The notes under the pieces are model-generated. The model was not told the DNA's origin. It saw only the letters and a program-made list of their open reading frames with translations, and made no database searches. From the NCBI RefSeq assembly GCF_026559675.1, contig NZ_CP092891.1, positions 2,046,001-2,110,000 of the forward strand: a DNA stretch of 64,000 bases, in the 5' to 3' direction. The stretch comes from Microbacterium oxydans (GTDB lineage Bacteria > Actinomycetota > Actinomycetes > Actinomycetales > Microbacteriaceae). This document shows, piece by piece, positions 3,215 to 10,603 of this stretch; the stretch's first letter is position 1, and every line of letters begins with the position of its first letter. The translations under genes and the position numbers were made by a program.

Positions 3215-5341
3215 TCACGCGTCGATGGATTCGCGGGAGAGCCGGTCGGAGGAGTCGATGATGAACTCGCGGCGCGGGGCGACCTCGTTGCCCATGAGCA
3301 GCTCGAACACGCGGCCGGCGGCCTCGGCATCCTCCATGCGCACGCGGCGCAGGAGTCGCCCGGAGCGGTCCATGGTCGTGTTCGCCAGCTGCTCCGCGTC
3401 CATCTCACCGAGACCCTTGTAGCGCTGGATCGGCTCGTGCCAGCGCTTGCCCGCCTTGCGGAGCTTCGTCAGCAGCGCGTGCATCTCCTGCTCGCTGTAG
3501 GTGTAGATCGTCTCGTTCGGCTTGGACCCGGGGTTCATCACGATCACGCGGTGCAGCGGCGGGACCGCGGCGAACACACGGCCGTGCTCGATCAGCGGTC
3601 GCATGTAGCGGAAGAAGAGCGTCAGCAGCAGCGTGCGGATGTGTGCGCCGTCGACGTCGGCGTCGCTCATCAGGATCACCTTGCCGTAGCGCGCCGCATC
3701 GATGTCGAAGGTGCGCCCGGAGCCGGCGCCGATCACCTGGATGATCGACGCGCACTCGGCGTTCGACAGCATGTCGCCGACCGAGGCCTTCTGCACGTTG
3801 AGGATCTTCCCTCGGATCGGGAGCAGCGCCTGGAACTCGCTGTTACGCGCGTTCTTGGCGGTGCCGAGAGCCGAGTCGCCCTCCACGATGAAGAGCTCGC
3901 TGCGCTCGACCTCGTTCGTGCGGCAGTCGACGAGCTTGGTCGGCAGCGTCGAGGACTCCAGGGCGTTCTTGCGACGCTGGGTCTCCTTGTGCGCACGCGC
4001 CGAGACGCGTGCCTTCATCTCGGAGACGATCTTGTCCAGCAGCTGCGTGGCCTGGTTCTTGTCGTCGCGCTTGGTCGAGCTGAACCGCTGCGCCAGGTCC
4101 TTGCGGATCACCTGCGCCACGATCTGACGAACAGCCGGAGTGCCCAGCACCTCCTTGGTCTGGCCTTCGAACTGCGGTTCGGGCACGTTGACGGTCAGCA
4201 CCGCCGTCAGCCCGGCCAGGACGTCGTCCTTCTCGAGCTTGTCGTTGCCGACCTTCAGACGACGCGCGTTCTGCTCGACCTGGGTCCGCAGCACCTTCAG
4301 GAGCTCCTGCTCGAAGCCCTGCTGATGCGTCCCGCCCTTGGGCGTCGCGATGATGTTCACGAACGAGCGGACGCGGGTGTCGTAGCCGGTCCCCCAGCGC
4401 AGGGCGATGTCGACGGCGCACACGCGCTCGACCTCCGTGGCGATCATGTGCCCGTCGGCCTGCAGCACCGGCACGGTCTCCTTGAAGGTTCCCTCGCCCT
4501 GGATCCGCCACGTGTCCGTGACGGGAGGATCGATCGCGAGGTAGTCCACGAACTCGGAGATGCCGCCCTCGTACAGGTACGAGGTCTCGTCGGTCCCGAC
4601 GACGGTCGTCTCGCCATCGGAGTCCGGGACCGGGACGACCTGTCCCGCCGCCCGCGCATCCTTGACGACGATCTCGAGTCCGGGGACGAGGAAGGCGGTC
4701 TGGCGCGCACGCGTCTCGAGCTCCGAGAGCTGGAACGCGGCGTCTTTGGTGAAGATCTGCCGGTCGGCCCAGTAGCGCACGCGGGTTCCGGTGACGCCAC
4801 GCGGCGCCTTGCCGATGACGCGCAGCTCGCTGTTCTCCTCGAACGGCGTGAACGGCGCGTCCGGGCGCTTCTCCCCCGAGTCCGTGAAGATGCCGGGCTC
4901 GCCGCGGTGGAACGACATGGCGTAGGTCTTGCCGCCGCGATCGACCTCGACGTCGAGACGCTCCGACAACGCGTTCACGACGGAGGCGCCGACGCCGTGC
5001 AGACCGCCGGATGCCGCGTAGGAGCCGCCGCCGAACTTTCCACCGGCGTGCAGCTTGGTGTAGACCACCTCGACGCCGGTCAGGCCGGTGCGCGGCTCGA
5101 CGTCGACGGGGATGCCGCGACCGAGGTCGTGCACCTCGACGCTGCCGTCGGCGTGCAGGATGACGTCGATCTTCGTGCCGTTGCCGGCGACGGCCTCGTC
5201 GACGGAGTTGTCGATGATCTCCCAGAGGCAGTGCATGAGGCCCGGCGAACCGTTCGACCCGATGTACATGCCCGGGCGCTTGCGGACAGCTTCGAGCCCC
5301 TCAAGCACCTGGAGATGATGGGCGGAATACTCGGCATTCAC
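3215..5341 (-). CDS. parE: DNA topoisomerase IV subunit B (ATPase subunit)
   Basis: GHKL ATPase plus TOPRIM subunit. The N-terminal ATP site shows EIIDNSVDEA, HDLGRGIPVD and GLHGVGASVVNAL; the transducer domain follows. TOPRIM carries the acidic EGDSALGTAK glutamate and the DADVDGAHIR metal-binding aspartates. EGDSAL in place of the gyrase EGDSAG fits ParE better than GyrB. I chose GTG at 5341 (708 residues) because TAGACT lies 8 nt upstream and the protein then opens directly with the conserved NAEYSAHHLQVLEGL stretch; an upstream GTG at 5386 would add 15 residues but has no usable ribosome site. Convergent with parC. Confidence 0.9.
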   Translation of the reverse strand: MNAEYSAHHLQVLEGLEAVRKRPGMYIGSNGSPGLMHCLWEIIDNSVDEAVAGNGTKIDVILHADGSVEVHDLGRGIPVDVEPRTGLTGVEVVYTKLHAGGKFGGGSYAASGGLHGVGASVVNALSERLDVEVDRGGKTYAMSFHRGEPGIFTDSGEKRPDAPFTPFEENSELRVIGKAPRGVTGTRVRYWADRQIFTKDAAFQLSELETRARQTAFLVPGLEIVVKDARAAGQVVPVPDSDGETTVVGTDETSYLYEGGISEFVDYLAIDPPVTDTWRIQGEGTFKETVPVLQADGHMIATEVERVCAVDIALRWGTGYDTRVRSFVNIIATPKGGTHQQGFEQELLKVLRTQVEQNARRLKVGNDKLEKDDVLAGLTAVLTVNVPEPQFEGQTKEVLGTPAVRQIVAQVIRKDLAQRFSSTKRDDKNQATQLLDKIVSEMKARVSARAHKETQRRKNALESSTLPTKLVDCRTNEVERSELFIVEGDSALGTAKNARNSEFQALLPIRGKILNVQKASVGDMLSNAECASIIQVIGAGSGRTFDIDAARYGKVILMSDADVDGAHIRTLLLTLFFRYMRPLIEHGRVFAAVPPLHRVIVMNPGSKPNETIYTYSEQEMHALLTKLRKAGKRWHEPIQRYKGLGEMDAEQLANTTMDRSGRLLRRVRMEDAEAAGRVFELLMGNEVAPRREFIIDSSDRLSRESIDA

Positions 5342-5523
5342 AATCTCCGAGTCTATTCTCGACAGACGCTCTCCAGCCGCAGACACTCCCCACGGATGGC
5401 CACGGGAGGCTCACCGCGTACGCGCTGAGCGAAACACGCCGCAAACCGGGCATGCGTACAGGTGGGGCGTGGTTGTATTGACCAAATCCCCCAAGCGAAG
5501 CCGACACCCGAGGAGGCACCGAG

Positions 5524-5759: not shown

Positions 5760-6815
5760 TCAGTCCACGACGACCCGGCGCACCCGTGCGGTGAGCCTCG
5801 TGAGGATCTCCTCACCCACGGTGTCGATCCTCTCGGCGAGGGCGGTGGCGGAGTCTTCTCCGTCGTCCCCCGCTCCGAAGAGCACGACCTCGTCACCGAC
5901 GCGGGCGCCGGGCCAGCCGTCGACCACCGACGAGGTGTGACCCACCTCGCGTAGCGCCCTGGCTCCGTCGGGGGTCCCGACGCTCGCGCCACGCACCGTC
6001 GAGGGCAGACCGTCGAAGCTGCCGATCCCGATCCGAACCTCGCCGTCCGTCGTCTCGCCGTCCGTCGTCTCGATGACCGGGGCCACGAGCGTCGCCGCCG
6101 GGCGTATCCCCTCGAGCTCGGGACCATCTGCGGAGCGGACGCCGTAGCAGAACGCGCCGATGCGCGACACGGTCCCCCGCAGCTCCGGCCGCCACCAGGA
6201 CGCCGCCGATGCGGTGAGGTGGAGGGCCGTCGGCGTCGGACCGGACTCCCCCGCGACGCGGACGGCGTCCAGGAAGACCTTCTGCGCGTCGTCGTCGTCG
6301 GCGTCGCTCGCCTCGGCGATATGGCTCCACACGCCGACGAGCTCCAGGAGACCGGCGCCCTCCGCACGTCGAGCCTCGGCGACGGCGGACTCCCAGTCTT
6401 CCGGCAGCACGCCGTTGCGGTGCAGCCCGGTGTCGATCTTCAGATGCACCCGGGCTCGCGACCCCAGGGCCTCCGCACGCGCGATGATCCGCCGCAGATA
6501 CTCGACCGTGCCGACCCCGAGGTCGATGCTCTGCATCAGGGCCTCATCGATCTCGGCGTCCGTCGACGTCGCCCAGGCGAAGATCCTGGCGTCTCCGCCG
6601 ACGATCCGGCGCACGGAGAGGCCGCTGCGGATGTCATAGCTGCCGAACGAGTCGACCCCTGCCTGTACGGCGTTCTCGACCGCCCACGCGAGCCCGTGTC
6701 CGTAGGCGTCGTCCTTGAGCACGAGCATGAGCGTCGACGGGGACACGCGCGCCTGCACGGCGGCGATGTTCGCGCGGAAGACGCTGCTGCTCAGACGGAG
6801 CTCGGGGCGCGTCAT
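5760..6815 (-). CDS. Alanine racemase-like protein, PLP-lysine half, C-domain motifs lost
   Basis: 351-residue fold-type III PLP protein. The TIM barrel is complete: K34 in VLKDDAYGHG is the Schiff-base lysine, IDTGLHRNG supplies the arginine near the carboxylate, and WSHIAEA, the TASAAS serine and SRIGAFCYG (arginine under the pyridine ring) complete the cofactor site. The C-terminal beta domain is present but odd. The SYG.TY block with the catalytic tyrosine is missing, and GR(V/I).MD has become GHTSSVVD, although the final EILTRLTARVRRV is normal. Start: the ATG at 6815 overlaps the upstream stop as ATGA; a GTG at 6824 is the alternative. Predicted to work only with the upstream gene product. 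The substrate could be alanine or another amino acid. Confidence 0.8.
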   Translation of the reverse strand: MTRPELRLSSSVFRANIAAVQARVSPSTLMLVLKDDAYGHGLAWAVENAVQAGVDSFGSYDIRSGLSVRRIVGGDARIFAWATSTDAEIDEALMQSIDLGVGTVEYLRRIIARAEALGSRARVHLKIDTGLHRNGVLPEDWESAVAEARRAEGAGLLELVGVWSHIAEASDADDDDAQKVFLDAVRVAGESGPTPTALHLTASAASWWRPELRGTVSRIGAFCYGVRSADGPELEGIRPAATLVAPVIETTDGETTDGEVRIGIGSFDGLPSTVRGASVGTPDGARALREVGHTSSVVDGWPGARVGDEVVLFGAGDDGEDSATALAERIDTVGEEILTRLTARVRRVVVD

Positions 6816-7516
6816 GCTTCCCACCCCCGGACGGCGTGCGCTCCGGCCACGGTGACCAGCTCCGCGGATTCCATCCCGGTGATGTCGGCCCAGCGCGCGA
6901 TGCCCGCCGCTGCAGGGCCCTCCCCGCCGAAGTAGGTGACCTCGGTCCCCACCTCCGCGTCTCCGCCTTCGAGGTCGACGACGCAGACGTCCATCGCGAC
7001 CCTCCCGACGATGGGGCGGGCGATTCCGTCGATCTCGACGTGGGCGTTGTTCCCGAGAGCCCGCACGATCCCCTGCGCGTAGCCGCCCGTCACCAGGGCG
7101 ACCGTCGTGTCTTCCGTCGCGCGGAACGTGTAGCCGTAGGAGACGGCGTCTCCGGGGCGCAGGCGCTTGGTGGAGAGCACTCGTCCGGTCAGCCGCATGA
7201 CCGGACGCGTCGCGAGCGCACCCGCGGTGTCCGGCAGGCCGTAGAGGAGTGACGAATCGATGTCGGGCTCACCCGTCGTGGTGCCGACGATGCCCTCGAG
7301 GTGGAGGGCTTCGACCTCGCCCGGCGCGTCGACGAGCACGCGCTCCGCTCCCGCCGTGGTCACGGCCTGAGCGACAGCGAGGAGACCGTGGCCCCAGGCA
7401 TCGCGTCGGAGATCGGCCACGCGACCGCCCTCGAGAACCGCCGCAGAGGCCGCTGCAGCCAGGGCCGAGCGGGAGATCACCGCGCGCGGCAGGGAGCTGG
7501 AAGTCGTCTCGCACAC
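6812..7516 (-). CDS. Alanine racemase C-terminal-domain protein, complementary half without PLP lysine
   Basis: 234 residues, far shorter than a normal alanine racemase (about 370). The first barrel repeat survives as DLRRDAWGHG, where arginine R37 stands in the lysine position and W41 replaces tyrosine. Most of the barrel is deleted, and it resumes at DSSLLYGLP. The C-domain is intact: catalytic-type tyrosine Y127 in AVSYGYTF, GGYAQG, and GRVAMD with M175 and D176. These are the residues that the downstream overlapping gene lacks. Start GTG at 7516, 7 nt after TAGGCT, so probably leaderless. Coupled to the next gene by an ATGA overlap. Alone it cannot bind PLP covalently. Confidence 0.8.
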   Translation of the reverse strand: MCETTSSSLPRAVISRSALAAAASAAVLEGGRVADLRRDAWGHGLLAVAQAVTTAGAERVLVDAPGEVEALHLEGIVGTTTGEPDIDSSLLYGLPDTAGALATRPVMRLTGRVLSTKRLRPGDAVSYGYTFRATEDTTVALVTGGYAQGIVRALGNNAHVEIDGIARPIVGRVAMDVCVVDLEGGDAEVGTEVTYFGGEGPAAAGIARWADITGMESAELVTVAGAHAVRGWEA

Positions 7517-7596: not shown

Positions 7597-8613
7597 ATGT
7601 CTCGTCTTTCCCTCGCGCCCCGCATCCGCTATCTGCTGGGACGTGCCCGCCGCATCGATGTCGGATCGGTGGTGGAACGCGCCAAGGAGGCGTCGGAACA
7701 GCACCACAAGGCCGTTCCCGCCATCGTCGTCGACATGCTGTGGTCCGCCGCCCGGCACAACGTCGGCTTCCAGGACTACATCGACTACGACTTCGCCATG
7801 CTCACGAAGGCGGAGCGCGACACGTACATGACCCACCCGGTGTCGAACCAGCTCTCGCAGCGGTACGACCACCCCGACTATCGCTGGATCTTCCAGGACA
7901 AGGTCGAGTTCGACAAGCAGTTCGCCCCCTTCCTGAAGCGCGAGTGGATGGTCGTCGAGGAGGGCAACGCGGATGCCGTGCGCGAGCTCACCCAGCGCCT
8001 CGGCACGATCGTCACGAAGGAGCCGGTGGGGCAGGCCGGCACCGGTGTGCACCGCTACCACGCCGCCGACATCGAGGACTGGGAAGAGTTCCACCGCGGT
8101 CTGCTGACGCGCGGAGAGCTGCTCATCGAAGAGGTCATCCGTCAGCACGACGCCCTCGCGGCGGTGTGCCCCGGCACCGTGAACACGACCCGCATCACCG
8201 CGTTCTTCGACGGTGAGAAGGCGCACATCCTGGCGATGGCCCAGAAGTTCGGTCGCGGCGCCGTGAGCGACCAGATGACGTTCGGCGGCTTCTACACGAT
8301 GCTCGACGAGAACGGCCACGCCGTGGGCGCCGGATACGACTCGCACGGCCACGTGCACGAGACGCACCCCGACTCCGGCTTCCGGATCGCGGACTTCCAG
8401 CTCCCCTACATGGACGAGGTCCGCGCGTTCATCGACGACGTCGCCCGGGTCGTGCCACAGGTGCAGTACGTCGGCTGGGACATCGTCGTCTCCCCCGACG
8501 GCCCGGTCCTCGTCGAGGGCAACTGGGGCGCCGGCGTGTACGAGAACAAGCCCAGCGTCACCGGCATCCGCACCGGTCACAAGCCGCGCTACCGCAAGGT
8601 CATCGGCTTCTGA
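7597..8613 (+). CDS. ATP-grasp ligase, sugar-transfer-associated type
   Basis: 338-residue ATP-grasp enzyme resembling the 'sugar-transfer associated' family found with cell-surface polysaccharide genes. The nucleotide-binding lysine lies in VTKEPVGQAGTG, and the metal ligands lie near the C-terminus in GWDIVVSPDG and VEGNWGAG. Such enzymes join a carboxylate to an amine, often attaching an amino acid to a carrier or sugar; the substrates here are unknown. It is divergent from the racemase pair with an 80-bp gap, so a shared role in making and ligating a D-amino acid is an inference from position only. GGAG lies 4 nt before the ATG; TAGACT at 7565-7570 is the likely -10. Confidence 0.75.
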   Translation: MSRLSLAPRIRYLLGRARRIDVGSVVERAKEASEQHHKAVPAIVVDMLWSAARHNVGFQDYIDYDFAMLTKAERDTYMTHPVSNQLSQRYDHPDYRWIFQDKVEFDKQFAPFLKREWMVVEEGNADAVRELTQRLGTIVTKEPVGQAGTGVHRYHAADIEDWEEFHRGLLTRGELLIEEVIRQHDALAAVCPGTVNTTRITAFFDGEKAHILAMAQKFGRGAVSDQMTFGGFYTMLDENGHAVGAGYDSHGHVHETHPDSGFRIADFQLPYMDEVRAFIDDVARVVPQVQYVGWDIVVSPDGPVLVEGNWGAGVYENKPSVTGIRTGHKPRYRKVIGF

Positions 8614-8672: not shown

Positions 8673-9364
8673 TCAGCTCGCGCGGACGATGCCGAGCGGC
8701 GTGGACTCGAGGCCCTGGCCGAGCGGGTTGTCCCCGAGGATCTTGACCAGACGACGCTCGCCGTCCTTGTCGAGCGTCGATCCGAGGATGTTGCCGCCCA
8801 GGTCGTTGATGTCGACCACGGCGACCTCGGCCTGACCGCCGATGAGCTTCTTCAGACGTGCCGCGACGCCGTCGGGGTCCTTCGGTCCGAGCACGACCGC
8901 CTCGTTGTAGGGAGGGATGGTGTGCTTCGTAGGACCGTCGATCGCCCGCGCCTTGTCGCCCGCGATGCGGTAGAAGTCACCACGGCGACCGAACGCCTTG
9001 GTGACGGCGGCCACGGCCGAGGCGAACAGGATGCGCGGCGTGCCGCACTCCCGCAGCGCCATCTCCATCGTCTCGGGCATGCCGAGTCCGATGCCGTAGG
9101 GCGTGCGCGTGACGTACTTCGAGAGGAACAGCGCGAGCTTGCGCGGCTTGATCTCGTCGAGACGGTACGACCGCCCCTGCGTGATCGCCACGATCTTCTC
9201 GGTCACGAACAGCAGGTCGCCCGGCTGCACGGCATCCTTCGCGTACTCGGTGATGATCGCGTCGAGATCGTCGTCCGGCATGACCACACGGGTGCGCAGC
9301 GGGATGCGCGCATAGCTCTTTCCATCGACGCTCGCCTCGAGCGCCTTGCCGTCGTTCGCCTGCA

Positions 9365-9365
<1 letters not shown>
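8673..9365 (-). CDS. Coenzyme F420-0:L-glutamate ligase (CofE/FbiB) family protein
   Basis: 230-residue single-domain member of the CofE-like gamma-glutamyl ligase family, which in the F420 pathway adds glutamate to F420-0 using GTP. The family core (FVTEKIVAITQGR, the RTPYGIGLGMPETM region, VAVVDINDLGGN) spans the whole protein. It lacks the nitroreductase-like C-terminal domain of mycobacterial FbiB. No other F420 biosynthetic gene is in the window, so the acceptor is uncertain. The ATG at 9365 overlaps the sigA stop as TGATG; a GTG at 9368 is also possible. Probably cotranscribed with sigA. Confidence 0.75.

Positions 9366-10603
<1,238 letters not shown>

Follow-up and report, generated by a model that had tools for sequence, protein, structure and literature searches.

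Described alanine racemases and the pair in Microbacterium oxydans

Homodimeric alanine racemases (Alr; PF01168 plus PF00842, with BsAlr 1SFT and MtAlr 1XFC as references) have active sites to which one chain contributes the lysine and its partner the tyrosine. In the alanine enzyme the pocket for alanine is delimited by Y354 and Y265', and residue 354 contacts the phosphate of pyridoxal phosphate (PLP) (excerpts of PMC3485190). According to the same excerpts, lysine-preferring racemases carry Thr or Ala at position 354, as do the homodimeric Lyr/Bar (4DZA, 4DYJ), which accept Lys or Arg. Two overlapping genes on the minus strand of the window, a stretch of 64,000 nucleotides of Microbacterium oxydans (positions 2,046,001 to 2,110,000 of contig NZ_CP092891.1), encode a short and a long protein that have the fold and the cross-chain Lys/Tyr site plan of these enzymes in common. 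In contrast to homodimeric Alr, the pair comprises two different chains and would form one site rather than two. It shares the replacement of Y354 with Lyr/Bar, although the substitute here is acidic (Asp/Glu). In prozyme-type heterodimers, such as those of the trypanosomatid prozymes and antizyme inhibitor, a degenerate paralogue within the dimer activates or regulates its partner, whereas the present pair divides the catalytic residues between the partners in both directions. As judged from sequence and from predicted single-chain folds, the pair is very probably a one-site, obligate heterodimeric fold-III PLP racemase.

The short subunit (234 residues, GTG start, 7516 to 6812, minus strand), the putative donor of the tyrosine and the Met-Asp loop, comprises a barrel fragment, with about 145 barrel residues missing relative to Alr, and a complete C-terminal β-domain. 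The long subunit (351 residues, ATG start, 6815 to 5760, minus strand), the putative donor of the PLP lysine, comprises a complete barrel followed by an eroded C-terminal domain. The genes lie in different reading frames and, as first described, overlap by ATGA at 6812–6815 (minus strand), where the stop of the short gene meets the start of the long one. Pfam assigns to the short protein Ala_racemase_C only (104.5 bits; residues 106–226, 6839–7201, minus strand), the domain holding the trans residues of the proposed composite site. The long protein matches nearly the whole Ala_racemase_N profile (143.2 bits; 6135–6782, minus strand) and retains a C-domain remnant covering profile positions 74–126 of 127 (31.4 bits). 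Both N and C gathering scores are passed and the structures agree, which places the pair within the fold-III Alr/PF01168-PF00842 superfamily. Each subunit, predicted as a single chain, adopts a high-confidence fold corresponding to parts of alanine racemase, and both models match homodimeric Alr; structure alignments used 33 of the 43 split pairs described below. The 168-bit cut-off of the alanine racemase equivalog TIGR00492 in NCBIfam is reached by neither chain (short 101.6 bits, long 110.8 bits). The long protein scores 127.5 bits against the best alanine racemase and 51.7–56.4 bits against Lyr/Bar. Among the database entries seen, both halves are mostly named alanine racemase, labels on which the pair bears.

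The catalytic residues are distributed between the chains as the original prediction had claimed. In the short protein R37 (ADLRRDAWGHG; 7406–7408, minus strand) occupies the position of PLP lysine K39, while Y127 (AVSYGYTF; 7136–7138, minus strand) corresponds to the catalytic Y265' of BsAlr and M175-D176 (GRVAMD; 6989–6994, minus strand) to M312'-D313'. The long protein has K34 (LVLKDDAYGHG; 6714–6716, minus strand) at the position of K39 and also retains Y38, R133, H165, S203 and R218, the tyrosine block and Met312 being lost. The full set K39, Y43, R136, H166, S204 and R219 plus trans Y265, M312 and D313 is thus complete only across both chains, and Lys and Tyr, which a TIGR00492-type enzyme carries in one chain, occur only in the long and only in the short protein, respectively. 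The claim that two chains rebuild one complete site holds at this level, with the amendment that the site differs from that of the alanine enzyme at position 354, where the long protein has E335 (5811–5813, minus strand) and the short one Ala at the equivalent position. Judged from these residues, no more than one of the two sites at the dimer interface can be complete. The minus-strand location, the two other genes with both domains complete in the same genome and the residues at 354 are additions to the original prediction.

Complementary losses, co-occurrence and fusion of the two halves

Sixty tandem loci, picked by eye as adjacent matches from listings over 199 genomes, together with the window give 61 pairs in Microbacteriaceae. 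Complementary loss is present in 43 of these, always in the same direction, and two complete enzymes in 18; the names split and full-length were given to these classes only after the residue table was seen. Given such post-hoc classes, the non-circular statement is that none of the 61 pairs has lost Lys, Tyr or Met from both members. The split shorts have Tyr and Met in 43/43, Asp (37) or Asn (6) at the D313' position and Lys in 0/43, with Arg in its place in 30/43. The split longs carry Lys39, Tyr43, Arg136, His166, Ser204 and Arg219 in all 43 cases and never Tyr265 or Met312, the tyrosine position being a gap in 42 and Gly in one. One long (L132/L245) has Lys at the PLP position in its own frame, an Arg being seen only in a mixed-frame reading. 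Position 354 is Asp in 22 and Glu in 20 of the 42 readable split longs (the remaining one being truncated at the edge of its contig), varies freely in the shorts and is the usual Tyr in neither member. Residue conservation thus follows whichever dimer face is used, and the retention of both halves with reciprocal losses, named at the outset as a check, recurs in these 43 pairs of Microbacteriaceae. The ratio of non-synonymous to synonymous substitution (dN/dS), calculated from nine close relatives per gene among the loci fetched, is 0.12–0.18 for the short and 0.14–0.20 for the long gene. An RTGA overlap joins 36 of the 43 split pairs and all 18 full-length tandem pairs. The stretches fetched around the split pairs contain a parE-like gene in 43/43 and rpoD in 37/43, both being found in 0/18 around the full-length tandems, and lineages differ in how the pair is oriented with respect to parE.

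Two side observations concern these proteins. Residues 34–44 of the shorts, around the lost lysine, are well kept (consensus ADLRADAYGHG in 33 aligned shorts), and the dead site of the short may have a structural or ligand-binding role. Microbacterium sufflavum has two split pairs (L243 and L262); their longs share 73% and 49% identity with that of the window, and both pairs display complementary losses.

Within the genus, cut-offs were set at visible score gaps, between E values of 1.4e-28 and 3.8e-24 for the short and between 1.5e-59 and 1.6e-40 for the long protein. By score, each half is present in 124 of 149 genomes, with two apparent mismatches. In G308 the long lies in pieces beside the short, in an assembly where parC and parE are broken too, and in G307 both halves are within one open frame. 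After inspection of these, 125 genomes have both halves and 24 have neither, as expected of an obligate heterodimer, adjacency for most of the 125 being taken from listed coordinates only and one of the 24 (G263) being 81% complete. An ordinary alr is present in each of the 24 pair-less genomes, with Tyr at 354 in the 23 that are readable; two of the genomes have an extra paralogue with Gln or Ala. On a quick tree of the ordinary Alr from 23 pair-less genomes and 10 chosen carriers, built without G263 and the two extra paralogues, presence and absence of the pair switch at least twice on well-supported branches.

The two halves also occur as natural fusions. With the G307 fusion as query, at least 13 fusion clusters appear among the best 120 of 1609 protein matches, all having the Tyr/Met-Asp half without lysine followed, in one chain, by the lysine half without the SYG tyrosine. 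Ten of the 13 are 522–557 residues long, with little beyond the C-domain ahead of the lysine half. The remaining three are longer (731–734 residues), and two of these, named Parafrigoribacterium mesophilum and a Terrimesophilobacter metagenome-assembled genome, have a whole but lysine-less barrel. One fusion (P0003) has Tyr at the Y265 column of the lysine half, as SYA rather than SYG. On the best tree the fusions fall into four groups, and the strongly supported branches of this quick tree, from which four of the 13 fusions and c2D_L094 were omitted, force just one origin.

Full-length tandem Alr paralogues of other Microbacteriaceae (for instance Curtobacterium sp. PhB115) are among the closest known counterparts of the longs. 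Their barrels and those of the longs form one clade apart from ordinary Alr (support 100, quick tree). Like the long, each lies downstream of an alr-like gene. In contrast to the long, these paralogues keep Tyr and Met-Asp and could be homodimers. In a quick C-domain tree built without the long C-domains and ALR3_own, a single branch (support 96) separates the shorts from the rest. A search across the order, covering 297 genomes of which 274 belong to other families, returned no split outside the family among the 16 matches read (10 of the 30 returned loci plus six odd ones), all complete Alr except one that starts off its contig. Complete Alr were likewise all that was seen at 74 loci (L137–L210, nearly all from other families) among the best 80 of the named scan. 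As a separate observation, eight full-length Glu-354 paralogues (the downstream genes of L087, L101, L111–L114, L117 and L125) have SYD in place of SYG at the catalytic tyrosine, which adds another acidic substitution close to the pocket.

The observed sequence anatomy, the conservation with its complementary and never double losses (43/61), the 125/24 co-occurrence, the low dN/dS, the overlap kept in 36 of 43 pairs, the fusions and the single-chain folds together support the obligate heterodimer of the original prediction. What we infer is a physical complex, its activity, its substrate and its physiological role. In the proposed mechanism, the long subunit would provide the barrel, the PLP lysine, the phosphate-binding residues and, in cis, the acidic pocket residue E335, and the short subunit would provide in trans the catalytic tyrosine and the Met-Asp loop. 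The other, mirror-image site would be dead, as the short has neither the lysine nor the greater part of the barrel and the long has no tyrosine. Such an enzyme may have arisen through reciprocal losses in tandem Alr paralogues, some lineages then fusing the halves, and the gene overlap would keep short and long in step.

Position 354, cell wall type and alternative explanations

In lacking the pocket tyrosine the pair resembles Lyr/Bar, and the Asp or Glu of the 42 readable split longs is also found in all 18 full-length downstream relatives. An acidic residue at 354 would suit a cationic side chain on the substrate, and the choice between Asp and Glu may tune side-chain length. Type-B murein chemistry is taken as background for this substrate reading, and D-ornithine walls occur in M. 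resistens and Curtobacterium. The pair is carried by M. sufflavum, M. oxydans, M. testaceum, M. resistens and Paramicrobacterium humi (the last name inferred), and short proteins are also deposited under the names M. algeriense, M. paraoxydans, M. saperdae and M. croceum. Excerpts of PMC10757982 report D-ornithine for M. sufflavum, for Paramicrobacterium, for the cluster that includes M. oxydans and, M. enclense excepted, for the M. testaceum clade, and place the four further species in D-ornithine groups. The pair carriers with known walls have D-ornithine. Pair-less genomes (names inferred) include M. lacticum, which has a lysine wall, M. invictum, an oral taxon, Candidatus M. phytovorans and M. 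radiodurans. Together with the pocket residue, this distribution makes it probable that the pair is a diamino-acid racemase, its substrate here likely being ornithine. The wider proposal, to which we give marginally less credence while still favouring it, is a single-site heterodimeric diamino-acid racemase that arose by reciprocal decay, was re-fused in places, and serves Microbacteriaceae as the source of D-ornithine (perhaps D-lysine) for type B2 peptidoglycan. The ordinary Alr would make D-alanine alongside it, and the pair is probably not the alanine racemase of the cell.

Several points weigh against this proposal. Split and full-length members are intermixed in both barrel subclades, and the unity of neither is rejected by the approximately unbiased test (p 0.35 and 0.31; ALR3_own and c2D_L094 excluded), so that one split and several are not told apart. 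Cryobacterium sp. Y11 is without the pair, and each of its two Alr carries Tyr at 354; Cryobacterium is of the diaminobutyrate type and would then need another source. Several of the genome names used in the wall comparison are themselves inferences. M. radiodurans, inside an otherwise lysine clade, is reported to have D-ornithine (excerpts of PMC10757982), and in G363, the genome to which that name was assigned, neither the pair nor an Asp/Glu-354 racemase was found; it is a real exception unless the wall report or the name match is wrong. The lysine wall implied for M. invictum (excerpts of PMC10978784) is attached to the weakest of the names, matched to a cluster of three sequences, and may belong to another member.

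One alternative, which we regard as rather unlikely, is that the same heterodimer acts on something other than a cationic diamino acid (serine, glutamate, homoserine or a broad catabolic range), the match with D-ornithine being a phylogenetic coincidence. Few named species can be scored, M. radiodurans misfits, and Asp/Glu at 354 could be structural, given the contact of this residue with the PLP phosphate in the alanine enzyme (excerpts of PMC3485190). Coincidence is opposed, however, by the acidic residue in 42/42 readable split longs and 18/18 full-length relatives, and by the presence and absence of the pair changing at least twice on well-supported branches of the ordinary Alr tree; absence is thus not an accident of one clade. 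A different division of labour, in which the long is active alone or as a homodimer with its general base replaced and the short is regulatory, draws on the complete PLP site of all 43 longs. Regulatory pseudoenzymes of this fold, such as antizyme inhibitor, are known. The short nevertheless retains exactly the catalytic trans residues Y127, M175 and D176, needless for a regulator, and the longs have a gap (42/43) or Gly (one) at the tyrosine, which makes this arrangement quite improbable. It is very improbable that the short or the long instead joins the ordinary Alr in mixed dimers tuning alanine racemisation: a same-fold Alr is present in the same cell, but short and long co-occur, the fusions among the listed matches join them to each other, and the 24 pair-less genomes with an ordinary Alr have neither half. 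Mere decay of two alr pseudogenes was rejected on dN/dS and conservation and has practically no chance of being correct, although complete alr genes exist elsewhere in the genome, because dN/dS is 0.12–0.20, the catalytic residues are fixed across the split pairs read and the folds are of high confidence. A normal alr coupled with freely decaying halves had been named at the outset as the pattern that would speak against a working pair; the normal gene is indeed present, whereas free decay is contradicted.

No report of a heterodimeric alanine racemase or of a Microbacterium ornithine racemase was found in searches of an open-access library, which omits most subscription papers. If the heterodimer is real, it would be the first in the alanine racemase family, as far as those searches show. 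It would also illustrate neatly how reciprocal loss can convert a homodimer with two sites into a heterodimer with one, since full-length, half-eroded and fully eroded pairs as well as fusions are all extant. If the substrate reading is also true, the pair would be the missing enzyme for the D-diamino acid by which taxonomists classify Microbacteriaceae.

Neighbouring genes and further paralogues

On one side of the pair lies the gene labelled here parE (3215–5386, minus strand), a topoisomerase subunit that Pfam and NCBIfam assign to the GyrB type. Beside the short gene and divergent from it is an ATP-grasp gene (7597–8613, plus strand; Pfam ATPgrasp_ST, no NCBIfam match), whose product displays 91–98% identity in the 14 closest relatives listed. 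This neighbour was rejected as a partner ligase because it does not track the pair: 27 of the 149 genus genomes are without a match to it, and these must be pair carriers because all 24 pair-less genomes have a match. It is followed by a gene with an F420-ligase-like domain (8676–9368, minus strand; Pfam F420_ligase, 50.4 bits, above the gathering score and far below the NCBIfam CofE cut-off) and by the adjoining rpoD-type sigma factor gene (9365–10603, minus strand).

The same single-contig genome of 3.78 Mb contains two further genes with complete N and C alanine racemase domains. The third complete Alr (G000:C1:368106-369149; L002/L008) is divergent in sequence and has His at 354 (SIPHTIV), perhaps reflecting another substrate. 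In a different genome (G077), the ordinary alr is overlapped by another frame (L278:2492-3904, minus strand) with matches both to an N-terminal segment and to the C-domain of the Alr profile.
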